A DNA stretch of 64,000 nucleotides, taken from the NCBI GenBank assembly GCA_023254055.1, contig JALQYN010000065.1, positions 1-64,000 of the forward strand, written 5' to 3'. The notes under the pieces were generated by a model. That model saw only the letters and a program-made list of their open reading frames with translations. It did no database searches and was not told the DNA's origin. Origin of the DNA: Polaribacter sp. (GTDB lineage: Bacteria > Bacteroidota > Bacteroidia > Flavobacteriales > Flavobacteriaceae). The stretch's first letter is position 1, and every line of letters starts with the position of its first letter. Positions 8,100 to 47,464 of this stretch are shown in pieces. The position numbers and the translations under genes are program-made.

Positions 8100-8179
8100 A
8101 TTTTGAAAGAAACATTGTGCCTTAAATTAAAATTCCATACTTTTGGACAAAAATCGTCCTAAAACAATTGTCGAAAAAT

Positions 8180-9694
8180 ATGGTATCAACATTCGGAGAA
8201 TACATCAAGCAAAGAAGAAGTGAATTAGGTTTTCCATTGAGAAAAGTAGCTTCACATCTTGATATTGACACTTCAACACTCGGAAAAATAGAACGTGAAG
8301 AAAGACACTTATCGCCCGAATTGGTTGAACTTCTTGCCGAAATCCTTGAAACTGAACAAAGTGAACTTTTAAATCATTATTATTCATCAAAAGTAATTGA
8401 AGAATTAAAAGAATATCCGCAATACAAGGATGTTTTAAATATTGTTAAGGAACATATGGATTTGTATGTTTCAAATCAAATTCGACTTTCATTTCAAAAG
8501 AAATGGACGGAAAAAGAATTTGAAAACCCAAAAGCTAAAACCAAAATAGCTACTTTGTTTTCTGGAATTGGAGCAATAGAATATGCGTTTAGACGCTGTA
8601 AACTGAATACAGAAATCGTATTTGCAAGTGATAATGACAAATTTGTAAAAGAAAGTTATTTTGCAAATTACGATATGGACGAAGAACGATGGTATAATGA
8701 CGTTCGAGATATTAAAGCTAAAAAATATAAAGGTCAAATTGACCTTTTAGTTGGCGGAAGTCCTTGTCAATCTTTTTCAATGGTTGGTAAACGAAAAGGT
8801 TTAAAAGATACTCGTGGAACACTCTTTTATGAATTTGCAAGAATTGTAAAAGAAAGCCAACCCAAAGTATTCATTTTTGAGAATGTAAAAGGCTTAATTA
8901 ATCACGATAAAGGAAACACTTTTGAGACCATTAAGGCAACTTTTGACGAATTAGGTTATAAATATTTCTATCAAGTAATGAACGCCAAAAATTATGGTAT
9001 GGCTCAACACAGAGAAAGAATATTTGTTGTCGGCTTTAAAGACAAATCAATCAATTTTGAATTTCCGGAGCCAATCGAGTTGAAACATAAAATGCAGGAT
9101 TTTCTTGAAGATTATACAGATAGCAAATACTACTTAAAGGAAAAAGGCGTGAAATTCGTAACAAGTTCTAAAAATAGAAAAAAACGTTACACTCAAATTA
9201 ATGGAGACATTGCTATTTGTCAAAAAGCTAATCAACAATTTAATTGGCACGGAGATTTCATTTTTGAGAGTCAGAAAAAACAAGAATTTGACGAATTTAT
9301 TTTTGATGTTAATGACGTTGAAGAAAAATATTACTTATCAGAGAAAACTACTAAATATGTACTCTGCGAGGGAACAAAGAACTTTAAAACAAGAATAAAA
9401 ACTGACCTTGAAGTTGCTCGTCCACTTTTACAATCTATGCATAAAATGCATCGTGCTGGAGTAGATAATTATGTAACTCACAATAAAGGCAGAATTAGGA
9501 AATTAACACCAAAAGAGTGTTTGCGATTAATGGGCTTTAGAGATGATTTCAAGCAAGTAGTTAGTGACACACAAATGTATAGACAAGCAGGCAACAGTAT
9601 TGTTGTTGACGTTCTAATCGCTTTATTAAAACAAATGGACATAACTAAATTTTCGAGTATAAATGAACATACAGCTATTGAACGAGCCGTTTAA
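8180..9694 (+). CDS. DNA (cytosine-5)-methyltransferase with N-terminal XRE-type HTH (type II R-M)
   Basis: A 504-residue C5-cytosine methyltransferase. Residues about 8-60 form an XRE helix-turn-helix (IKQRRSELGFPLRKVASHL). The catalytic part has motif I LFSGIGAIEYAF (about 123), motif IV GGSPCQSFS with the nucleophilic Cys (about 195), motif VI ENVKGL (about 233) and motif VIII QHRERIFVVG (about 275). A variable target-recognition region covers about 300-440, and the closing motif RQAGNSIVV is near 471. N-terminal HTH fusions are known in M.EcoRII and M.SsoII, where they repress the gene, so autoregulation is likely. I start at ATG 8180; an in-frame TTG lies at 8168. It overlaps the downstream nuclease gene by 32 bases. 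Target specificity cannot be read. Confidence 0.93.
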   Translation: MVSTFGEYIKQRRSELGFPLRKVASHLDIDTSTLGKIEREERHLSPELVELLAEILETEQSELLNHYYSSKVIEELKEYPQYKDVLNIVKEHMDLYVSNQIRLSFQKKWTEKEFENPKAKTKIATLFSGIGAIEYAFRRCKLNTEIVFASDNDKFVKESYFANYDMDEERWYNDVRDIKAKKYKGQIDLLVGGSPCQSFSMVGKRKGLKDTRGTLFYEFARIVKESQPKVFIFENVKGLINHDKGNTFETIKATFDELGYKYFYQVMNAKNYGMAQHRERIFVVGFKDKSINFEFPEPIELKHKMQDFLEDYTDSKYYLKEKGVKFVTSSKNRKKRYTQINGDIAICQKANQQFNWHGDFIFESQKKQEFDEFIFDVNDVEEKYYLSEKTTKYVLCEGTKNFKTRIKTDLEVARPLLQSMHKMHRAGVDNYVTHNKGRIRKLTPKECLRLMGFRDDFKQVVSDTQMYRQAGNSIVVDVLIALLKQMDITKFSSINEHTAIERAV

Positions 9695-10634
9695 GGTTCT
9701 TGACACAAAAGAAAAAATAACAATAGCGGATTCATTCGTTGTTAGACAAAATAAAATTGGTGGCGGAAATGGCGAAGCCAAACTTTACATTGGACAAGAA
9801 AACCAAGAAACAAGAGATTTTTTTGGTATTTATGGTTTTGGAATAAAATGCTTTTTGCTAAAAAAAGACTTACTAAAGTATTTGGAAGAAACTAAACAAG
9901 AATACTTAAATCCAGAGCAACCTTATTTAAATCGTGAAATACTTCCAAACCTTTGGAATGAAAGACTTAAAAAAGTTAGTGAATTACCTGAACGAATTGA
10001 GTTTGAGGTTACTGAACAAACTCAAATTGATGGACCAAGGATTTATATAAAGTCTAATGATAAAGCGTATAAATTAATACGAGAACTTTCTTTACCAAAT
10101 ATCACTTACATTTCAGCTGTTAAATTACTAGATAACAATGGTAAAGTATTTTATTATTTCCGACTATTTGCGGACTATTTTGGAGACGTTCAGCATCCTT
10201 ACACAATTGAAAAAGAGCAACAAGAAATCGATGAACTCGAAAATACAGAAGAAAAGAAAGTATTATCAAGAGCTCGAATTGGTCAAGGAAAATATCGAGA
10301 GGAACTTTTAAAATTATGCCCTTTCTGCCCAATAACTTTAGTGTCTGATGATAGAATGCTAATAGCAAGTCATATCAAACCTTGGGCGAAATCAAACGAT
10401 TTTGAGAAAACCGACCCATTAAATGGATTTATGTTATCGCCAACCTTCGACTTTATGTTTGACAGAGGTTTCCTTTCTTTTACTGACGACAAGAAAAGTA
10501 TTTTATCACCTTTCTTATCGAAAATGACATATTCAAAATTGGGAATAAGTGATGGAAAAACATTTAGCCATTTGCCAGTTGATGGTCGAAAAGAATATTT
10601 AGAATATCATAGAACCGAATTACTGAAAAGATAA
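9663..10634 (+). CDS. HNH nuclease, probable cognate type II restriction endonuclease
   Basis: A 323-residue protein whose C-terminal third is an HNH_2-type nuclease domain. A possible metal-binding pair CPFC lies at about 218-221, the first His in ASHIKPWAKS (about 236), then DPLNGFMLSPTFDFMFDRGFLSF with the conserved Asn and terminal catalytic element. The N-terminal 200 residues are not recognised and would be expected to recognise DNA. Its ATG lies inside the methyltransferase gene in another frame (32-base overlap), implying coupled translation with M made before R. Position next to a C5 methyltransferase is the main reason to call it the restriction enzyme. A solitary HNH protein is the alternative. 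Confidence 0.82.
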   Translation: MNIQLLNEPFKVLDTKEKITIADSFVVRQNKIGGGNGEAKLYIGQENQETRDFFGIYGFGIKCFLLKKDLLKYLEETKQEYLNPEQPYLNREILPNLWNERLKKVSELPERIEFEVTEQTQIDGPRIYIKSNDKAYKLIRELSLPNITYISAVKLLDNNGKVFYYFRLFADYFGDVQHPYTIEKEQQEIDELENTEEKKVLSRARIGQGKYREELLKLCPFCPITLVSDDRMLIASHIKPWAKSNDFEKTDPLNGFMLSPTFDFMFDRGFLSFTDDKKSILSPFLSKMTYSKLGISDGKTFSHLPVDGRKEYLEYHRTELLKR

Positions 10635-30491: not shown

Positions 30492-31061
30492 ATGAAAACT
30501 CATCAACATTTTATTCTACATAAACCTTATGGTTATCTCTCTCAGTTTGTCAATAATCAAACAAAGAGAAAGAAAAAGATGTTAGGTGAATTGTATGATT
30601 TTCCAGAAGGAACTATGGCAATTGGAAGATTAGATGTAAACTCTGAAGGCTTGTTATTGTTAACAACAGACGGAAAAGTAAGTGAACATATAAGAAGTAA
30701 AAAAGTAGCAAAAGAATATTATGTTCAAGTGGATGGAGTTATTACTCAAAAGGTAATTAATCTCCTTAAAAATGGAGTAGAAATTAGTGTTGAAGGAAAA
30801 AAATATACCACAAAACGCTGTGATGCTGTTCTTATTTCTCCTCCTAACTTTCCAAACAGAACCCAAAAAATACGTGATGAAAGACATGGACCAACTTGTT
30901 GGATTTCAATTACAATTAATGAAGGTAAGTTTAGACAAGTTCGTAAAATGACAGCGGCAGTAGGTTTTCCTACTTTGCGTTTAATTAGAATACGAATCGG
31001 AACTATTTATTTACATGATTTAAAACTTGGTGGTGTAAAAAAGGTTGATCAATTAATGTAA
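30492..31061 (+). CDS. rRNA large-subunit pseudouridine synthase, RluE/RsuA family
   Basis: A 189-residue RsuA-type pseudouridine synthase. The catalytic Asp is in AIGRLDVNSEGLLLLTTDG (about 43-61). KEYYVQVDG and GKFRQVRKM (about 150) complete the family core. It has no N-terminal S4 domain and is short, as in RluE, which modifies U2457 of 23S rRNA. I cannot prove the exact target. The divergent neighbour is recA. Confidence 0.88.
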   Translation: MKTHQHFILHKPYGYLSQFVNNQTKRKKKMLGELYDFPEGTMAIGRLDVNSEGLLLLTTDGKVSEHIRSKKVAKEYYVQVDGVITQKVINLLKNGVEISVEGKKYTTKRCDAVLISPPNFPNRTQKIRDERHGPTCWISITINEGKFRQVRKMTAAVGFPTLRLIRIRIGTIYLHDLKLGGVKKVDQLM

Positions 31062-31105
31062 CTTATAGCACACAAAAACAAAAAAGTTCTACTTATTTTT
31101 ATGGA

Positions 31106-31219
31106 ATGAATAACTCAAACACAACTTTATATATTGTAGCTGCAGTAATCATCTTCCATTTTTTGGTAGGTTTTGGTTATTTAATTTACAAAATGACAAA
31201 AAAGGAAGAAAAAAAATAA
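31106..31219 (+). CDS. Small single-span membrane protein (37 aa)
   Basis: A 37-residue frame starting MNNSNTTLYIVAAVIIFHFL and ending with a Lys/Glu-rich tail. One hydrophobic span of about 20 residues is followed by a positively charged end, as expected for a real N-out small membrane protein. It begins 45 bases after the pseudouridine synthase gene and ends 3 bases before the stop of the convergent ElaA gene. Function unknown. It may be translated, but the sequence alone cannot prove this. Confidence 0.5.
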   Translation: MNNSNTTLYIVAAVIIFHFLVGFGYLIYKMTKKEEKK

Positions 31220-31221
31220 TT

Positions 31222-31662
31222 TTATTTTCTAAGCATTTCTATATGCGGAATTCCGTCTTCTAAATACTCCTCTCCTACTTTATGAAACCCGTGAGATTCG
31301 TAGAATTTTTTTAAATATACTTGAGCAGAAATTGTTATTTCTGAGGTTGAAAATTTGTCTTGAACTGCTTTAATAGAAGCTTTTATTAAATCATGTCCAT
31401 ACTGATTTTCTCTTTCTTTTTTATCAACTACTACCCTACCAATACTTGCTTCTTTAAAATAATCTCCTGGTTTAAAAATACGTGTATATGCAATAATTTT
31501 ATCCTTTTTTACACCAAAAACGTGCAATGATTTTTGATCTTTATAATCTAAATCTTGATATACACAGTTTTGTTCTACTACAAAAATTTCAGATCGTAAT
31601 TGTAAAATACGATACAACTCTTCTAAAGATAATTGGTTAAACTCTTTAATAAAAAACTCCAT
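31222..31662 (-). CDS. GNAT-family protein, ElaA type
   Basis: A 146-residue acetyltransferase of the ElaA subfamily. The N-terminal FNQLSLEELYRILQLRSEIF with FVVEQNCVYQDLDYKD is the ElaA signature. The CoA loop IGRVVVDKKERENQYGHDLI is near 81. Substrate unknown. The gene begins 1 base after the rpiB stop, so the pair forms an operon. Confidence 0.87.
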   Translation of the reverse strand: MEFFIKEFNQLSLEELYRILQLRSEIFVVEQNCVYQDLDYKDQKSLHVFGVKKDKIIAYTRIFKPGDYFKEASIGRVVVDKKERENQYGHDLIKASIKAVQDKFSTSEITISAQVYLKKFYESHGFHKVGEEYLEDGIPHIEMLRK

Positions 31663-31663
31663 A

Positions 31664-32095
31664 TTAACAACAAGAAATTTTATCTACTCTGTTTGCATGA
31701 CGACCACCTTCAAAAGCTGTATTTAAAAAAATATCTACAAAACCAAGTGCTTGTTGTAAAGAAACAAAACGTGCAGGAATGGTTAAAATATTTGCATTAT
31801 TATGTTGACGTGTTAAAGCAACTAATTCATTATTCCAACATAAAGCAGCTCTTACACCTTGGTGTTTATTTGCGGTCATTTGAGCACCATTTCCACTTCC
31901 ACAAAGAATAATTCCTAATTCTGCTTTTCCTTTTTCAACAGCTTCTGCTGTTGGATGAATTGCATCAGGATAATCCATACTATCATTTGTATCTGTTCCA
32001 AAATTTAAAACGGTATAACCCGCAGCTTCTAATTTTTTTAAAATTTCAAATTTATATTCTGTACCTGCGTGATCATTCCCTATAGCAATTGTCAT
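31664..32095 (-). CDS. rpiB: Ribose 5-phosphate isomerase B
   Basis: A 143-residue LacAB_rpiB enzyme that interconverts ribose 5-phosphate and ribulose 5-phosphate. The phosphate-binding start MTIAIGNDHAGTEYK, the active-site Cys in GIILCGSGNGAQMTANK (about 65) and CWNNELVALTRQHNNANIL are all present. It leads the rpiB-elaA pair. The candidate origin region lies directly upstream. Confidence 0.94.
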   Translation of the reverse strand: MTIAIGNDHAGTEYKFEILKKLEAAGYTVLNFGTDTNDSMDYPDAIHPTAEAVEKGKAELGIILCGSGNGAQMTANKHQGVRAALCWNNELVALTRQHNNANILTIPARFVSLQQALGFVDIFLNTAFEGGRHANRVDKISCC

Positions 32096-32614
32096 AATAT
32101 GTTGTTTTTAATGTTATTAAGTAAACAAAAATAAGTATAAAGATGGTTATCAACAGTTATTTTTTAATAGTTTTTAATAACCCTTTAAAAATAAGAGTTT
32201 TAGGTATATTATCTAAATGTTAAGAAATATTCTTATTTTTTTAAAACTTTTTTTGATTGTTGTAATAATTTTTACAATACAAGAAGATAAATAACATTAC
32301 CAATTTTTTTTTTAATTTAATAATAGCAATTTATCAACAAATTATTTACAGTTTACTTACATTTAAAATATAATAAGTAATTAATAAAATCTATGTATAA
32401 CTGTTTATTAAAATTGTTAATAAAGTAAAAAATTAATTGATTATTAAGCTTTTAAAATTATAGGAAGTTGTTAATTTAATTTAATAAGTGATATATTAAA
32501 AAAAATACTTAGAAAAGTATTGTATCTATTAACAGTATATCATTAACATTATTATTTTTAAAATTAATTAAAGAAGAATAGTGTAATTATATAATATGTT
32601 GATAAGTAAAAAAA
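32096..32614. other. Candidate replication origin (oriC): AT-rich gap with DnaA-box-like repeats
   Basis: About 520 bases without a gene, almost entirely A and T, with long A/T runs. Exact TTATCAACA occurs at 32147-32155 and 32331-32339 (plus) and 32597-32605 (minus); TTATTAACA, one base different, lies at 32415-32423 (minus). This 9-mer is one base from the E. coli DnaA box TTATCCACA. Gene orientation changes from mostly minus on the left to mostly plus on the right. dnaA is not in the window, so this is inference. Confidence 0.45.
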
Positions 32615-32785
32615 TTAAATTGTCTTGTTATCTAATTTTTTAAAATATAAAGAGTCTTTTTGAATTTTTACAGATTCTGGAGAAGTATTTATATTTAAAG
32701 GAGCGTTTATATTTACAACAGTTATAAATATACCAGTGATAAATATCATGCTAAATAGTGCTATTATTTTATGAATTTGTTTCAT
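32615..32785 (-). CDS. Possible small membrane/secreted protein (56 aa)
   Basis: A 56-residue frame: MKQIHKIIALFSMIFITGIF then a short polar tail. The first 25 residues form a hydrophobic signal-anchor with positively charged start. It lies between the candidate origin and the lipid kinase gene. Base composition is close to the surrounding intergenic DNA, so it could be spurious. Confidence 0.35.
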   Translation of the reverse strand: MKQIHKIIALFSMIFITGIFITVVNINAPLNINTSPESVKIQKDSLYFKKLDNKTI

Positions 32786-32865
32786 TTTTTTAAACTTCTT
32801 ACACTATAAAGACGTATAATTTAAAAAAGTGTTACAATAAAATTAAGATTTCTTTAACTTTTTTT

Positions 32866-33780
32866 TTAAGGGATTATAAATTGAATTGCTTTTTTAAGTA
32901 TTGATACAGAGATAGATCCACGATTAATTAACTCTCCATCTGCTTGAATAAAAGGTTTTTCTGATTTTAAAAAAGGAGTAATTTTAAAAGAAGTTGTTTT
33001 GTAACTTTCCACTTTTTTATGATGTACAATTTGTCCATTGTATAATTTAGGTAAGTTTAAAATCATATCAATTAAAGTTAAATTCTTTGCTATTGTTATA
33101 TCTAATAAACCATCAGTACTATCAACTTCTTTTGTAAACTGCATTCCTCCTCCAGAAAATTTACAAATACCAAAAACAACCATCAAACATTTTTCTTTAA
33201 GTAGTTGATTGTTTATTTCAATAATTAATTTTGTTTTTTTATAAAACAATAAACCATACAAACCACTTAATAAATATGCTATTCCACCAAAGCTTTTTAA
33301 TTTTTTTAATTTACTAGCTACATAGCCATCATATCCTATTCCAGCTACATTTGTAAAGTAAGTAATGGTATTATTTTCTGTTTCTAATCTACCAATATCT
33401 TGTAGTATTGTTTTTTCTTTACTAATTATTGCAATAGATTTCTCTATCTTTGTACCAATGTTATAGGTTTTTACCCAATCATTTCCAGTACCAATTGGTA
33501 TTACAGCAAGTTGTATAGAGTTAGTTTCTACTAATTTTTGTTTCATAATTCCGTTAACAACATGATGTAAAGTTCCATCTCCACCAACAGAAATTATTTT
33601 AGTAAAACCCTTTTTAATAGCATTTTCTACTAATATTTCTTCATGTTTATAGTATTCAGTAAAAGCAAATGAAAATAAAATGTTTTGTTTTTTTAATTCA
33701 TCTGAAATTTTTCTCCAATTTTTTTTAGATTTTCCGTTTCCAGATGTTGGATTCACAATTAAAAACCAATTCGTTTTCAT
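32866..33780 (-). CDS. Diacylglycerol/lipid kinase (DagK/YegS family)
   Basis: A 304-residue cytoplasmic lipid kinase. The nucleotide-binding start is LIVNPTSGNGKSKKNW (about 7-22). The signature SVGGDGTLHHVVNGIM (about 65) and IPIGTGNDWVKTYN (about 95) are conserved. It phosphorylates diacylglycerol or a related lipid. It lies just right of the candidate origin and diverges from rnr. Confidence 0.88.
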   Translation of the reverse strand: MKTNWFLIVNPTSGNGKSKKNWRKISDELKKQNILFSFAFTEYYKHEEILVENAIKKGFTKIISVGGDGTLHHVVNGIMKQKLVETNSIQLAVIPIGTGNDWVKTYNIGTKIEKSIAIISKEKTILQDIGRLETENNTITYFTNVAGIGYDGYVASKLKKLKSFGGIAYLLSGLYGLLFYKKTKLIIEINNQLLKEKCLMVVFGICKFSGGGMQFTKEVDSTDGLLDITIAKNLTLIDMILNLPKLYNGQIVHHKKVESYKTTSFKITPFLKSEKPFIQADGELINRGSISVSILKKAIQFIIP

Positions 33781-33897
33781 AAAAAAATAAATTAATAAAG
33801 AAGCAAATTACAAAAATTGAATTCATAACTTTAAATTCATAATAAAACAAATTTTAATAATGTAATTTGTTCTCAATAAAAACAATAAAAAAGACAT

Positions 33898-36171
33898 ATG
33901 TCTAAAAAGAAGAAAATTTTTAAAAAGAAAGGTAGAATCATTAAAGATTTAACCAAAAATATATTTAAAATATTAAATGAAGATGCAAATCAATCTTATA
34001 ATTATAAGCAAATAGCATCAAAAATAGGTATTTCTGATACCGATGGAAAAACTCAAATTTTAAAAAAATTAGCAGAATTAACAGCAACTAAAAAAATTAA
34101 AGAAACTGATAGAGGTAAATTTACAATCAATCAAGATAGAAAATACCATATTGGCACCTTAGATTTAACAACAAATGGTAATGGATATTTTATTTGTGAT
34201 GATTTTGAAAATGATATTTTTATTCCGTCTATCAATTTAAATAAAGCACTACATAAAGACACTGTAAAAGTGTATACCTACAATAAAAGAGGAAGTAAAA
34301 AATTAGAAGCAGATGTTGTAGAAGTGTTGGAAAGAGCAAAAACAGAGTTTGTTGGTGTTTTACAATTGAATAAAAACTTTGGTTTTGTAATTCCAGATGA
34401 CAATAAAATGTATGCAGATCTTTTTGTTTCGCAAAACAAAATTAATGGAGCAGAAGACGGAGATAAAGTAGTTGCTACTTTAACAGATTGGCCATCTAAC
34501 TCCAAAAATCCTTTTGGGAAAATTACACAAGTTTTAGGAAAACCTGGAGATCATAATACAGAAATGCATTCTATTTTAGTGGAATATGGTTTACCGTATG
34601 AGTTTCCGAAAGAAGTTGAAGCAGAAGCAGAAAATTTACCAATAGAAATTACAAAAGAAGAAATTGCAAAACGTAGAGATATGCGGAACGATTTAACTTT
34701 TACAATTGATCCGAAAGATGCAAAAGATTTTGATGATGCTTTATCGTTTACTAAATTAGAAAATGGAAATTATGAAATAGGAATTCATATTGCAGACGTA
34801 TCACATTATTTGCAAGAAAAAACAATTTTAGATGATGAAGCTTATGATAGAGCAACTTCGGTTTATTTAGTAGATAGAGTAGTACCTATGCTACCCGAAA
34901 TGTTATCAAACGGAGTTTGTTCTTTAAGACCTAATGAAGAAAAATTAACCTTTTCTGCAGTGTTTGAAATCAATGAAAAAGCACAAGTTATTAAAGAATG
35001 GTTTGGTAGAACAGTTACCTATTCAGATCAACGCTTTGCTTATGAAGAAGCACAATATTTAATAGAACAAAATCAAGATGAAAGAAACAAGAAACAAGAC
35101 AACTCAGAAACTGTCATTCCGAACGAGGAAAGAGGAGGAATCTCATATTTAAAATGTACAATTCCTGCGGATATTTCTATCACAGATATAGAATATACCG
35201 TAACAAAAGAAATTGTTGAAGCAACTTTAAAGCTAGATGAATTAGCAAAAAAAATGCGAAAAAAACGCATGCAGGCTGGTGCAATCTCTTTTGATAGAGT
35301 AGAAGTAAAGTTTAATTTAGATGAAGAGGCAAATCCGGTTGGTGTTTTCTTTAAAGAAGCAAAAGATGCTAATAAATTAATTGAAGAATTTATGTTGTTA
35401 GCAAATAGAAAAGTAGCAGAATTTATCGGACAAGAGAAAGGAAAACCAAGTAAAAAAACTTTTATTTATCGTGTTCACGACGAGCCAAATATTGATAAAT
35501 TAAATGCTTTACAAGGTATTGTGAGTAAGTTTGGGTATTCGTTAAATACAGAAACGAAAGAAACCATTTCACAATCGTTAAATAAATTACTTTCTGATGT
35601 TCATGGGAAAGCAGAATCTAACATGGTGGAAACCTTAGCGATTAGAACCATGAGTAAAGCAGAGTACACCACACAAAATATTGGACATTATGGATTGGCT
35701 TTTGATTACTATAGTCATTTTACATCACCTATAAGACGTTATCCGGATGTGATGACACATAGATTACTTCAATATTATTTAGATGGCGGAAAATCACCGA
35801 AAGCGGAGATTTATGAAGAAAAATGTAAACATTCTTCTCAAATGGAAGAATTAGCCTCTAAAGCAGAAAGAGATTCTATTAAATACATGCAAGTAAAATA
35901 CATGCAAGATCATAAAGACATGGAGTTTGAGGGTGTTATTTCTGGTGTAACAGAATGGGGGATTTATGTAGAAATCAAAGAAAACAAATGTGAAGGAATG
36001 GTTCGGATTAGAGATATAAAAAGTGATTATTTTATATTTGATGAAAAACAATATGCAATTATTGGTCAATCTACAAAACAAATTTATCAATTAGGAGATG
36101 ACGTTGTGGTAAAAGTAAAAAAAACAGACTTAGAGCGTAAACATTTAGATTTTACTTTGATAGAAGAATAA
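33898..36171 (+). CDS. rnr: Ribonuclease R
   Basis: A 757-residue 3'-5' exoribonuclease of the RNB family. Domains in order: N-terminal winged helix (about 12-75), two cold-shock domains (about 80-230), RNB core with DPKDAKDFDDALS (about 272-284) holding the catalytic Asp residues, FTSPIRRYPDVMTH (about 609) and a C-terminal S1 domain (about 675-757). It degrades structured RNA. An insert around residues 398-420 (TVIPNEERGGIS) matches the family-1 genomic repeat in frame and is described separately. Confidence 0.95.
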   Translation: MSKKKKIFKKKGRIIKDLTKNIFKILNEDANQSYNYKQIASKIGISDTDGKTQILKKLAELTATKKIKETDRGKFTINQDRKYHIGTLDLTTNGNGYFICDDFENDIFIPSINLNKALHKDTVKVYTYNKRGSKKLEADVVEVLERAKTEFVGVLQLNKNFGFVIPDDNKMYADLFVSQNKINGAEDGDKVVATLTDWPSNSKNPFGKITQVLGKPGDHNTEMHSILVEYGLPYEFPKEVEAEAENLPIEITKEEIAKRRDMRNDLTFTIDPKDAKDFDDALSFTKLENGNYEIGIHIADVSHYLQEKTILDDEAYDRATSVYLVDRVVPMLPEMLSNGVCSLRPNEEKLTFSAVFEINEKAQVIKEWFGRTVTYSDQRFAYEEAQYLIEQNQDERNKKQDNSETVIPNEERGGISYLKCTIPADISITDIEYTVTKEIVEATLKLDELAKKMRKKRMQAGAISFDRVEVKFNLDEEANPVGVFFKEAKDANKLIEEFMLLANRKVAEFIGQEKGKPSKKTFIYRVHDEPNIDKLNALQGIVSKFGYSLNTETKETISQSLNKLLSDVHGKAESNMVETLAIRTMSKAEYTTQNIGHYGLAFDYYSHFTSPIRRYPDVMTHRLLQYYLDGGKSPKAEIYEEKCKHSSQMEELASKAERDSIKYMQVKYMQDHKDMEFEGVISGVTEWGIYVEIKENKCEGMVRIRDIKSDYFIFDEKQYAIIGQSTKQIYQLGDDVVVKVKKTDLERKHLDFTLIEE
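35113..35144. repeat. Repeat-derived insert inside rnr
   Basis: GTCATTCCGAACGAGG ... GGAATCTC reproduces the half-unit of the intergenic family-1 repeat (GTCATT[GC/CC]...[GC/GG]AATCT) within an open frame. It encodes about eleven residues, VIPNEERGGIS, in the linker before the helix QAGAISFDRVEVKF. Confidence 0.5.
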
Positions 36172-39291: not shown

Positions 39292-40815
39292 TTATAAAAG
39301 GGTTTCTATTGCTTTTTCAATTCTACTAATCGTTTCTTCTTTACCAATCATTTCTATGATTTCAAAAACATCTGGACCTTGAAGTGCGCCAACCAAGGCT
39401 AAACGTAATGGCATCATTACTTTTCCAAAGCCAATTTCATTTGAAACAATCCAACTTTTTATTGTGTTTTGAACGTTTTCTGTAGTAAAATCATTTACCG
39501 ATTTTACCAAACCAATTACATTTTCTAGCACCTCTTTAGTGTCATCTTTAATCGCTTTCTTAACAGCTTTTTCATCATAAGACGTTGGTGCTTGAAAAAA
39601 GAAATCGGATAGGCTCCAGAAATCAGACACAAAAACGGCACGTTCTTTAATCAATGAAACTACTTTTTCTATGTATTTTTCATCTTTGGAAGTCCCTTTT
39701 TTTGACAGAATAGGGATATATAATTTTGTTAGTTCCTCATCAGATTTAGTTTGTAAATACTGTTGATTGAACCAGTTTGTTTTTTCGGGGCTAAACTTGG
39801 CCCCAGATTTACTAACACGCTTTAAATCAAATACTTGAACCAGTTCTTCTAATGTAAAAAGTTCTTGTTCTGTACCTGGGTTCCAACCCAATAGAGCTAA
39901 CATATTTATAAAAGCATCGGCAAAATATCCATCTTCTTTATAGCCACGAGAAACATCACCTGTTTGTTCGTTTGTGTATTCTAAAGGAAACACCGGAAAC
40001 CCTAATTTATCTCCATCACGTTTGCTTAGTTTACCTTTTCCAACAGGCTTTAAAATCAAGGGCAGGTGTGCAAATTTTGGCGCTTCCCAACCAAATGCTT
40101 TATACAATAATACATGCAACGGCATCGATGGCAACCATTCTTCTCCACGAATTACATGTGTAATTTTCATCAAATGATCATCTACGATGTTTGCTAAATG
40201 ATAGGTTGGCATTCCGTCTGATTTATACAAAACTTTATCGTCTAAAGTATTTGTTTCTATCTTTATGGTTCCACGAATTTCATCATTCATCAGCAATGTT
40301 TCGTCTTGAGGCGTTTTAAAACGAATTACATAATTTTCTCCTGCATCAATTTTTTGTTGTACTTCTTCTTTAGACAACACCAACGAATTTACCAAACGCC
40401 CTTTTTCTCTATTGTGCCAATTATAAATAAAGGTTTTACCTTGTTCTTCATGGTTTTTTCTATGGAAATCAAGTTGTTCAGAACTATCAAAAGCATAATA
40501 TGCCCAACCTTTTTCAATTAAAATATCGGCATATTTTTTATACAAATCTTTACGTTCAGATTGTCTGTAGGGACCATATTTTTCGTTTTTTCCTGGACCT
40601 TCATCAAATGGAATGTTACACCAATTTAAAGCATCAACAATATACTGTTCAGCATTAGCAACATAACGAGTTTGGTCTGTGTCTTCAACGCGTAGCACAA
40701 AGGTTCCCCCATGTTTTTTTGCAAATAAGTAATTAAATAAAGCAGTTCTTACCCCTCCAATATGTAATGGTCCGGTTGGACTTGGTGCAAAACGAACGCG
40801 AATAGTAGATTCCAT
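39292..40815 (-). CDS. gltX: Glutamyl-tRNA synthetase
   Basis: A 507-residue class I synthetase. The HIGH signature is RFAPSPTGPLHIGGVRTALF (residues 8-27), and the KMSKS-type loop is KLSKRDGD near 264. VEDTDQTRYV confirms the glutamyl type. It attaches glutamate to tRNA-Glu. A -7 box TATCTTTG lies on the minus strand at 40836-40843. Confidence 0.97.
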   Translation of the reverse strand: MESTIRVRFAPSPTGPLHIGGVRTALFNYLFAKKHGGTFVLRVEDTDQTRYVANAEQYIVDALNWCNIPFDEGPGKNEKYGPYRQSERKDLYKKYADILIEKGWAYYAFDSSEQLDFHRKNHEEQGKTFIYNWHNREKGRLVNSLVLSKEEVQQKIDAGENYVIRFKTPQDETLLMNDEIRGTIKIETNTLDDKVLYKSDGMPTYHLANIVDDHLMKITHVIRGEEWLPSMPLHVLLYKAFGWEAPKFAHLPLILKPVGKGKLSKRDGDKLGFPVFPLEYTNEQTGDVSRGYKEDGYFADAFINMLALLGWNPGTEQELFTLEELVQVFDLKRVSKSGAKFSPEKTNWFNQQYLQTKSDEELTKLYIPILSKKGTSKDEKYIEKVVSLIKERAVFVSDFWSLSDFFFQAPTSYDEKAVKKAIKDDTKEVLENVIGLVKSVNDFTTENVQNTIKSWIVSNEIGFGKVMMPLRLALVGALQGPDVFEIIEMIGKEETISRIEKAIETLL

Positions 40816-44652: not shown

Positions 44653-44668
44653 AGTTTCACGTGAAACA
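44653..44668. promoter_or_regulatory. parS-like site 1 upstream of mnmG
   Basis: AGTTTCACGTGAAACA contains the perfect 14-bp palindrome GTTTCACGTGAAAC. It matches the consensus ParB site TGTTTCACGTGAAACA at 15 of 16 positions. It lies 6 bases before the mnmG ATG. Confidence 0.8.
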
Positions 44669-44674
44669 TGTAAA

Positions 44675-46552
44675 ATGAGTCTTTTTTCAACAACATACGA
44701 TGTAATAGTAGTTGGTGGTGGCCACGCAGGAAGCGAGGCAGCAGCAGCAAGCGCAAATATGGGCGCTCATACATTGCTTATTACAATGAGTTTGCAAAAC
44801 ATTGCACAGATGAGTTGTAACCCAGCCATGGGAGGAATTGCAAAAGGGCAAATCGTTCGAGAAATTGATGCCTTAGGTGGGTATAGTGGAATTGTAACAG
44901 ACAAAACCGCTATTCAATTTAAAATGCTGAACAAATCTAAAGGACCAGCAATGTGGAGCCCTAGAGCGCAATCGGACCGAATGCGTTTTTCTGAAGAGTG
45001 GAGAAAGGTTTTAGAGCAAACAGATAATTTAGATTTTTATCAAGATTCTGTAAATGGGTTGTTATTTGAAGAAAATAAAATAGTTGGTGTTAAAACAGTT
45101 TTAGGCTTAGAAATAAAATCAAAAACAGTTATCATTACGGCAGGAACTTTTTTAAATGGATTAATTCATGTTGGTGAAAAAACATTCGGAGGGGGTAGAG
45201 CAGGAGAAGGTGCTTCTACTGGAATTACTGAAGATTTAGTTAAAATGGGATTTGAATCAGGTAGAATGAAAACAGGAACACCTCCAAGAGTTGATGCACG
45301 TTCTTTAGATTTTTCTAAAATGATTGAACAACCAGGCGATGAACAACCTGAAAAGTTTTCTTATTTACCATCAACAAAACCTTTAACCAAACAACGCTCT
45401 TGTTATTTAACATATACGAGTCCAGAAGTTCATGAATTATTGAGAGAAGGTTTTGATAGGTCTCCAATGTTTAACGGTAGAATTCAGTCAACGGGACCCA
45501 GATACTGTCCCTCTATTGAGGACAAGATTGATCGTTTTGCTACAAAAGACAGACATCAAATGTTTATTGAGCCAGAAGGCTGGGATACTGTTGAAATTTA
45601 TGTGAATGGATTTTCTACTTCACTACCTGAAGATATTCAAGACAAAGCAATTCGCTCTGTAGCAGGTTTTGAAAATGTTAAGTTTTTGCGCTATGGTTAT
45701 GCTATAGAATATGATTATTTTCCACCCACACAATTAACACATTCGTTGGAAACGAAATTGGTAGAAAACTTGTTTTTTGCAGGACAAATAAATGGGACAA
45801 CAGGTTATGAAGAAGCAGCTTCTCAGGGACTAATGGCGGGAATTAATGCTGCTTTAAAAATTCAAAACAAAGAGCCGTTTATTTTAAAAAGAAACGAAGC
45901 ATATATTGGGGTTTTAATAGATGATTTAATTACAAAAGGAACTGAAGAGCCATATAGAATGTTTACGTCTCGAGCAGAATACAGAACTTTATTAAGACAA
46001 GACAATGCCGATTTAAGATTAACGCCGAGGTCTTATGAACTAGGTTTGGCATCTGAAGAACGTATGAACCGCGTTATAGAAAAGAAAGAAAAAACAGAAT
46101 TATTGATATACTTTTTAAACAACTTGAGTGTTAAAAAGGAAGAGCTAAATGGTATTTTAGAAAAGAAAAATCTTGCTTTGGTAAATCAATCTATGAAGCT
46201 TTTTAAAGTAGCCGCAAGACCTCAGTTAAATTTTTCTGACTTTATTCATTTAGATGAATTAGCTCAGTTTATTACACAACACAATATAGATGCTGAAATC
46301 ATAGAACAGGTAGAAATCTATTTAAAGTATTCTGGATATATTGAAAAAGAAAAGAATAATGCAGACAAGCTAAATCGTCTAGAAAATGTTACGATTCCTA
46401 AAACATTTGATTATTCTAAAGTAAAATCTCTTTCTTTTGAGGCAAGAGAAAAATTAAATAAAATAAAACCAACTTCCATTTCACAAGCAAGTAGAATAAG
46501 CGGTGTTTCACCAAGTGATGTTTCGGTATTGCTAGTTTATATGGGTAGATAA
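44675..46552 (+). CDS. mnmG: tRNA uridine-5-carboxymethylaminomethyl(34) synthesis enzyme MnmG
   Basis: A 625-residue FAD enzyme which, with MnmE, modifies U34 of tRNAs. The FAD loop is VVGGGHAGSEAAAASANMG (about 12-30). The GidA signatures GPKYCPSIEDK-like (here GPRYCPSIEDKIDRFATK, about 274) and GQINGTTGYEEAASQG (about 370) are present. Length is normal. It lies between two parS-like palindromes. In many bacteria mnmG is near the origin, which fits the other origin signs in the window. Confidence 0.97.
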   Translation: MSLFSTTYDVIVVGGGHAGSEAAAASANMGAHTLLITMSLQNIAQMSCNPAMGGIAKGQIVREIDALGGYSGIVTDKTAIQFKMLNKSKGPAMWSPRAQSDRMRFSEEWRKVLEQTDNLDFYQDSVNGLLFEENKIVGVKTVLGLEIKSKTVIITAGTFLNGLIHVGEKTFGGGRAGEGASTGITEDLVKMGFESGRMKTGTPPRVDARSLDFSKMIEQPGDEQPEKFSYLPSTKPLTKQRSCYLTYTSPEVHELLREGFDRSPMFNGRIQSTGPRYCPSIEDKIDRFATKDRHQMFIEPEGWDTVEIYVNGFSTSLPEDIQDKAIRSVAGFENVKFLRYGYAIEYDYFPPTQLTHSLETKLVENLFFAGQINGTTGYEEAASQGLMAGINAALKIQNKEPFILKRNEAYIGVLIDDLITKGTEEPYRMFTSRAEYRTLLRQDNADLRLTPRSYELGLASEERMNRVIEKKEKTELLIYFLNNLSVKKEELNGILEKKNLALVNQSMKLFKVAARPQLNFSDFIHLDELAQFITQHNIDAEIIEQVEIYLKYSGYIEKEKNNADKLNRLENVTIPKTFDYSKVKSLSFEAREKLNKIKPTSISQASRISGVSPSDVSVLLVYMGR

Positions 46553-46559
46553 AAAATAA

Positions 46560-46575
46560 AGTTCCATGTGGAACA
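46560..46575. promoter_or_regulatory. parS-like site 2 downstream of mnmG
   Basis: AGTTCCATGTGGAACA has 6-bp arms GTTCCA / TGGAAC, like the parS variant TGTTCCACGTGGAACA with two differences. It is 8 bases after the mnmG stop. Confidence 0.55.
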
Positions 46576-46594: not shown

Positions 46595-47464
46595 ATGAAT
46601 AAAGAAAAAAATCTTTATAAAGGGGTAAAACCTTTTATGAGCTGTACAGATCATTCGGTTTCTCAAGAATCTTACGAGCTTTTATTTAATGAAGAATTTG
46701 AGATGATGGTAACACTTCCTGTTCCGTCAGATTTAGAAAAATATTATAAAAGCGAAGATTATATTTCACACACAGACGCAAGTAAAAGTATTGTTGATAA
46801 AATTTATCAAAGAGTTAGAAAACACACATTACAAAAAAAGCTAGCACTAATAAACTCATTTCATTCAACAGAAAAAAAACTATTAGATATTGGATCTGGA
46901 ACCGGAGATTTTTTAGCGACTTGTAAAAAAAATCATTGGAGTGTTTTTGGAGTTGAGCCTAACGAGAATGCCATCGCTATTTCTAAAAGAAAAGGTATTG
47001 GTGTTATCAGTGATATTTCAATTTTAAAAGAAAATAATTTTGATGTAATTACGCTTTGGCATGTATTAGAACATGTAGAAAATCTAGTAGAGTATATAGA
47101 GGTTTTAAAAAAGAAATTAAAACCCAACGGAACATTAGTAATTGCTGTTCCAAATTACAAAAGCTTTGATGCAAATTATTATAAAGAGTTTTGGGCAGCT
47201 TATGATGTGCCAAGACATCTTTGGCATTTTTCTCAAAACTCCATAAAAAGACTTTTTGAAAATGTTTCAATGAGTGTTGAGAAAACAATTCCTATGAAAT
47301 ATGATTCGTATTATGTTTCAATGTTGAGTGAAAAATATAAATCAGGCAGCACAAATTTTCTAAAAGCTTTTTACATTGGTTTTCTTTCAAATAGAAAAGC
47401 AAAATCAACTTCTGAGTATTCTTCTCTTATTTATGTGATTAAAAACACAGAAAACACCATTTAA
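46595..47464 (+). CDS. Class I SAM-dependent methyltransferase
   Basis: A 289-residue methyltransferase of the Methyltransf_23 type. Motif I is LLDIGSGTGDFLATCKK (about 93-109); the following acidic residue is in FGVEPNENAIAI, and LWHVLEHVEN (about 153) marks motif IV. The N-terminus has only two Cys-like positions (MSCTDHS), so no zinc finger is evident. The substrate is unknown; similar proteins act on sugars or lipids in envelope synthesis. It lies 20 bases after parS-like site 2. Confidence 0.85.
   Translation: MNKEKNLYKGVKPFMSCTDHSVSQESYELLFNEEFEMMVTLPVPSDLEKYYKSEDYISHTDASKSIVDKIYQRVRKHTLQKKLALINSFHSTEKKLLDIGSGTGDFLATCKKNHWSVFGVEPNENAIAISKRKGIGVISDISILKENNFDVITLWHVLEHVENLVEYIEVLKKKLKPNGTLVIAVPNYKSFDANYYKEFWAAYDVPRHLWHFSQNSIKRLFENVSMSVEKTIPMKYDSYYVSMLSEKYKSGSTNFLKAFYIGFLSNRKAKSTSEYSSLIYVIKNTENTI

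Follow-up and report, generated by a model that had tools for sequence, protein, structure and literature searches.

In bacteria, the chromosomal origin of replication (oriC) usually lies next to dnaA, although this arrangement is not required, and mnmG (gidA) is a common neighbour of bacterial origins. The Ori-Finder 2022 paper states that oriC is not always near dnaA (PMC10225481); its remark on a separate dnaA is a general one, and the available portion of its text holds no word beginning with 'Bacteroid'. In the case of Mariniflexile litorale, dnaA did not fit the skew and the region adjoining mnmG was predicted to be oriC, in a paper whose figure legend swaps the labels (PMC11278836). For Algorimicrobium, mnmG was given as the origin (PMC12843772), and for Flavobacterium enshiense the origin was given as gltX, at which the skew changes sign from negative to positive (PMC9867689). 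The origin of Blattabacterium, a reduced endosymbiont without dnaA, was put in dapB by skew. The Mariniflexile, Algorimicrobium and F. enshiense predictions thus agree, with skew in support, on one gene neighbourhood, that of mnmG and gltX. Each concerns a single strain and names a gene, and the available portions of these three reports describe no conserved box array and do not name the rpiB gap as origin. Judged by title, none of five papers found for oriC together with rpiB is on Flavobacteriaceae.

The locus described here lies in a window of 64,000 nucleotides (the whole stretch of DNA that was analysed) from a Polaribacter-like draft genome of 99 contigs (2.25 Mb, 85.5% complete). The gap upstream of rpiB resembles a bacterial DnaA-box oriC in its cluster of 9-bp boxes within AT-rich DNA, in the skew reversal and in the nearby mnmG and parS, but differs from the usual kind in that dnaA is not adjacent and that the array extends over about 460 bp and includes no more than three exact boxes. 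The main box here is TTATCAACA, and that of E. coli is TTATCCACA. Judged from sequence, this gap, which is far from dnaA, is very likely to be the chromosomal origin; it is the window's longest gap and the one lowest in GC, it shares conserved blocks with the other members of a set of 35 gaps, and the skew flips there in complete relatives. It is very probably a precisely located oriC of a known kind, to which neither dnaA nor parB is linked. Since origins have been published at mnmG and gltX, which are 7-14 kb away in the window, the neighbourhood was already known, and the surprise is modest because it had been predicted before for single strains. What is added here is that the likely exact gap and the box array are named.

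The rpiB-lipid kinase gap and its box array

The genes that bound the gap, and two of its neighbours, are as follows.

31664-32095, minus strand: rpiB, ribose/galactose isomerase family (PF02502, E 5.6e-55)
32096-32865, no strand: proposed oriC, the rpiB-lipid kinase intergenic region (core about 32096-32610)
32866-33780, minus strand: YegS/diacylglycerol-kinase-like lipid kinase (PF00781 and PF19279)
39292-40815, minus strand: gltX-like glutamyl-tRNA synthetase (PF00749 and PF19269)
44675-46552, plus strand: mnmG/gidA (PF01134, E 2.4e-165)

Measured between ORFs of at least 60 aa, the gap is 770 bp long and the next longest in the window is 229 bp; its GC content of 16% is the window's lowest, the window mean being 31.5%. 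The original prediction of an extremely AT-rich stretch that is the window's longest gene-poor one therefore stands, yet the gap is not gene-free, since it holds a conserved 56-aa ORF at 32615-32785. The predicted flip in gene direction (about 20 minus to 14 plus on the left, 10 to 17 on the right) was also recovered, with slightly different counts of 20 minus to 12 plus on the left and 10-11 minus to 16 plus on the right. recA, rnr, gltX and mnmG are neighbours near the gap. The lipid kinase's nearest named relative found, 95% identical, belongs to an uncultured Polaribacter MAG. An Rfam search of 31000-34500 gave no match at E up to 0.5, and the reading as an RNA family was dropped. Elsewhere in the window, a predicted protein at 8168-10634 combines, by eye, an N-terminal helix-turn-helix with DNA cytosine methyltransferase motifs; an HNH-like ORF adjoins it, and the pair looks like a restriction-modification system.

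The elements found within the gap are listed below.

32147-32155, plus strand: DnaA box 1, TTATCAACA, exact word match
32218-32226, minus strand: degenerate box-like element TTCTTAACA, in the conserved column block TGTTAAGAA of the 35-row alignment; putative role
32331-32339, plus strand: DnaA box 2, TTATCAACA, exact word match
32342-32350, plus strand: degenerate box TTATTTACA, a TTATNNACA copy
32415-32423, minus strand: degenerate box TTATTAACA, a TTATNNACA copy within a conserved alignment block
32550-32596, no strand: AT-rich block adjoining box 3, candidate duplex-unwinding element
32597-32605, minus strand: DnaA box 3, TTATCAACA, exact word match
32615-32785, minus strand: small ORF of 56 aa with one hydrophobic stretch near the N-terminus

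The exact word TTATCAACA occurs five times in the window, compared to a mean of 1.38 in shuffled windows, none of 100 shuffles reaching five. Three of the five copies are inside the gap, at the positions and on the strands predicted for them, whereas shuffles of the gap average 0.02 and none of 2000 reached three. The looser pattern TTATNNACA is found five times in the gap compared to 0.74 after shuffling, and the copy predicted at 32415 with one mismatch proved to be TTATTAACA on the minus strand. No clear DnaA-trio array was seen in the gap by eye.

The draft genome as a whole has 105 exact boxes, compared to 64 for a reversed control; among the 100 of these that were listed, three boxes within 1 kb occur nowhere but in the gap. 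Its dnaA (PF00308) is on contig C56 and the window on contig C59. A richer box cluster at dnaA would have spoken against the original prediction, but the exact box nearest dnaA, among the C56 boxes listed, is about 8 kb away. The PF00308 match and the C-terminal motif RDHATVLHAC, seen in the translation, indicate that this genome encodes a DnaA with a predicted box-binding domain; we take this motif to be close to the box-recognition motif of E. coli DnaA. In a 0.3-Mb genome of the same order (G475, contig C1, 26264-26662), a tandem array of TTATCAACATTAAT-like units was observed, with 27 pattern matches on the reverse strand; the array might be an origin rich in boxes or just a simple repeat.

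Conservation of the gap in close relatives

The gap was compared across 35 rpiB-kinase gaps, comprising 30 loci, the window among them, from one match set (36 matches, of which 30 became loci) and five others. A Saprospiraceae locus with no rpiB within reach was dropped from the set; rpiB is inside the locus in 34 of the 35 and beyond the locus end in the remaining one (L015). Exact boxes recur near offsets 51 (plus), 246 (plus) and 513 (minus) from rpiB, and the first 600 bp of the 35 gaps hold 74 exact boxes compared to 0.6 after shuffling, though the 35 rows are related and so are not independent samples. Box 1 is exact in 26 of the 35 gaps, the window counted among them, and has one mismatch in the other nine; box 2 is exact in 31 and has one mismatch in four. 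At the place of box 3, 19 gaps have an exact box, 14 have one mismatch and two have two mismatches. These counts come from a mismatch search that used wide offsets for four loci (L012, L015, L027 and L028), which favoured the finding of boxes there. The boxes thus mostly keep their position and orientation. Some relatives have a degenerate or displaced box 1 or box 3, which counts against the origin reading; in two loci (L031 and L037) an exact minus-strand box lies 130-150 bp past the place of box 3.

The spacing of boxes 1 and 2 is 194-195 bp in 21 of the 23 rows in which both are exact, and 184 bp, about one helical turn less, in the window and its 95% relative. Conserved non-coding blocks occupy the 500 bp of the gap on the rpiB side, and the kinase side is less conserved at the DNA level. 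The 56-aa ORF sits between the box array and the lipid kinase and has a counterpart in 28 of the 35 gaps (window included); many counterparts start like MKNLRKIIALF. It had no NCBIfam match and no Pfam match over the cut-off, and by its predicted sequence it looks like an uncharacterised conserved small membrane protein.

GC skew and the positions of dnaA, parB and parS

Within the window, cumulative G-C has its minimum at 33883 (-598); this is weak evidence by itself, because 23678 is almost as low (-580). Skew over the whole chromosome could not be computed for a genome in 99 contigs and was taken from complete relatives instead. For raw skew, each of six complete relatives was sampled at even intervals starting from the site, in 20 stretches of 20 kb; the G020 sample of 20 stretches was unevenly spaced. 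Averaged over the six, raw skew is below zero in each of the ten bins on the left of the site and above zero in each of the ten on the right. Pooled over the six genomes, cumulative skew reaches its minimum at the site and its maximum opposite, and when the left-right split was rotated through 20 positions it scored highest at the site (0.123 compared to 0.095 for the next). Taken singly, the cumulative minimum is at the site in four of the six genomes, 5% off in G001 and 15% off in G023, and the raw skew of the left half of G001 is about nil (-0.002).

To remove the effect of gene direction, a strand-balanced skew was calculated at four-fold sites, with plus and minus ORFs weighted equally. 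This skew is negative to the left and positive to the right of the site in all seven complete relatives, the two G020 stretches nearest the site (of 20) having been left out of the halves. Thirteen of the 14 bootstrap 95% intervals exclude zero; the one that includes it belongs to the left half of G001 (-0.043 [-0.096, 0.007]). A two-breakpoint fit put the origin boundary at the site for four genomes (G016, G034, G002 and G029). For the other three (G001, G020 and G023) it was shifted by one 5% step, and the site itself fitted worse by 3.6, 1.6 and 1.3 log units, respectively. These shifts, like the G001 interval and the raw results for G001 and G023, count against the origin reading. The proposed check on the chromosomal skew minimum came out in favour in these relatives, the fitted boundary lying no more than one 5% step from the site.

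In 18 complete relatives the distance from the site is 0.29-0.45 of the circle for dnaA and 0.23-0.38 for the best parB match, so that neither dnaA nor parB is close to it. For the distances of dnaA, parB and parS, some chromosome lengths are given to the nearest 0.1 Mb, and G178 was assumed to measure 4.04 Mb; a weaker second parB match in G013 was left out. About a third of the circle separates each of dnaA and parB from the site; in G020 and G001 the two genes lie on opposite arms.

Two parS-like sites were found in the window to the right of the gap.

44653-44668, no strand: parS-like site with 1 mismatch, just before mnmG
46560-46575, no strand: parS-like site with 2 mismatches, just after mnmG; weak when taken by itself

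Both are 12-14 kb to the right, as predicted, but the number in the window, four matches on both strands compared to 2.2 expected, is not above chance and was rejected as evidence in its own right. They carry weight only because of the comparison with relatives. With one mismatch allowed, parS-like sites occur within 60 kb of the site in 17 of the 18 complete relatives, as expected of an origin-proximal ParABS centromere. These account for 31 of the 37 sites in the 18 genomes, and all 31 are on the kinase side, 7-48 kb from the site. The other six are strays, G002 has no match, and a reversed parS control gave 15 sites in the 18 genomes. The draft genome itself has three such sites at one mismatch, one in the window and two on other contigs; like the strays and the lack of a match in G002, this speaks against the origin reading. 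Along with the relatives' skew and the mostly conserved box positions, the linkage seen in the relatives supports the candidate origin of the original prediction.

In the mechanism proposed for the rpiB gap, DnaA, encoded far away, would bind the inverted box array, in which the strong boxes at 32147 and 32331 point right, the one at 32597 points left and weaker TTATNNACA copies lie between. DnaA would open very AT-rich DNA, probably the block beside box 3, for which 32550-32596 is the best candidate, and would load the helicase, and two forks would leave the origin. Segregation of the replicated origin region would then probably fall to ParB, through the parS sites around mnmG, 12-14 kb to the right of the gap.

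The skew by itself cannot separate the gap from mnmG. It is quite unlikely, in our estimate, that the origin lies beside mnmG (about 44.6-46.6 kb) and that the rpiB boxes are an accessory DnaA site, though the Mariniflexile and Algorimicrobium papers put oriC at mnmG by Ori-Finder and skew, parS-like sites flank mnmG in the window, and a distance of 12 kb is below the resolution of the skew sampling. In the window and in 60 kb of G020 alike, the rpiB gap has both the lowest GC and the highest density of TTATNNACA in any 700 bp; the lowest 500-bp GC near mnmG is 26-27% compared to 14-16% at the gap, and only one exact box, at 46792, is near mnmG in the window. Box density and GC therefore favour the gap, which is the better candidate for the precise site because mnmG shows neither low GC nor a box cluster in the window or G020.

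Fine-scale skew was tried as a means of separating the two and was rejected, as close to the site, at distances of up to 32 kb, the strand-balanced third-position skew of the window and G020 is noisy and partly against the origin reading of the gap. Pooled values are -0.013 (30-15 kb, two sources) and -0.042 (15-0.7 kb) on the left and +0.081 (0.7-12 kb, seven sources) on the right, but -0.079 at 12.7-32 kb on the right (two sources), against expectation. In the window, the left side is slightly positive (+0.057 and +0.029 over 20-0.7 kb) and the right side is -0.194 at 22-32 kb.

DnaA is also a transcription factor in bacteria, and box 1 is about 51 bp from the start of rpiB, so the boxes might be a regulatory or titration site for rpiB or the small ORF, with replication starting elsewhere. 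This would make the skew reversal in seven of seven complete relatives and the parS linkage a coincidence, and we regard it as very unlikely. That the boxes are random matches in an AT-rich stretch is hardly credible: low GC does make chance matches to AT-rich words commoner, but shuffles of this gap itself yielded 0.02 boxes on average, and those of the first 600 bp of the 35 gaps 0.6 exact boxes in place of 74.

The rpiB neighbourhood in other genera and its meaning

rpiB was found in 144 of 149 genomes of the family. In 20 other genera, the first 700 bp upstream of rpiB hold 75 copies of TTATNNACA compared to 11.4 after shuffling, and the stretch 1200-1900 bp from rpiB holds 10 compared to 5.3 (19 rows). 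The excess is not shared by all genera: G139 and G196 have two copies each upstream of rpiB, and G094 has an ORF directly upstream of rpiB and no copy in 1 kb. A cross-genus alignment of 26 rows was built from 17 of the 20 other-genus rows (L196, L208 and L209 being left out) and nine of the 35 close ones. Read by eye, 24 of its 26 rows have TTATNNACA at the place of box 3, and the AT-rich block beside it recurs across genera.

The fixed spacing of boxes 1 and 2 was rejected as a family-wide marker, being present in 12 of 149 family genomes and 20 of 296 genomes of the order. Outside the genus it occurs in 10 family genomes, in nine of which the pair is away from rpiB; in G079 both boxes of the pair are on the minus strand, at 372-585 bp upstream of rpiB. 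Other genera therefore keep the boxes and not that spacing. A palindromic parS is present in 18 of 21 complete genomes of other genera, with all 30 sites within 56 kb of rpiB and on its upstream side in 17 of the 18 genomes, and the reversed control gave one match in the 21. Three matches to the parS pattern on one strand only were left out; two are in G165, at 39 and 77 kb from rpiB, and the third is in G149, about 1 Mb away. In these 21 genera dnaA is 0.20-0.48 of the circle from rpiB. An origin beside rpiB throughout the family would rest on boxes and parS, the skew covering the close relatives.

Of 39 complete family genomes examined, 15 have a deposited sequence that starts at dnaA, a starting point far from the likely origin. 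An origin marker at the rpiB gap would correct the coordinates used for growth rates from read depth, for replichore maps and for gene-dosage arguments, and the gap would offer a short piece of DNA for direct tests of initiation in Bacteroidota. An unlikely further idea is that throughout the family the origin has remained next to rpiB and parS, with dnaA held in late-replicating DNA, and that a late dnaA could be a timing device. If this were true, dnaA dosage would rise only when the forks are well down the arm, which would link the supply of the initiator to the progress of replication.
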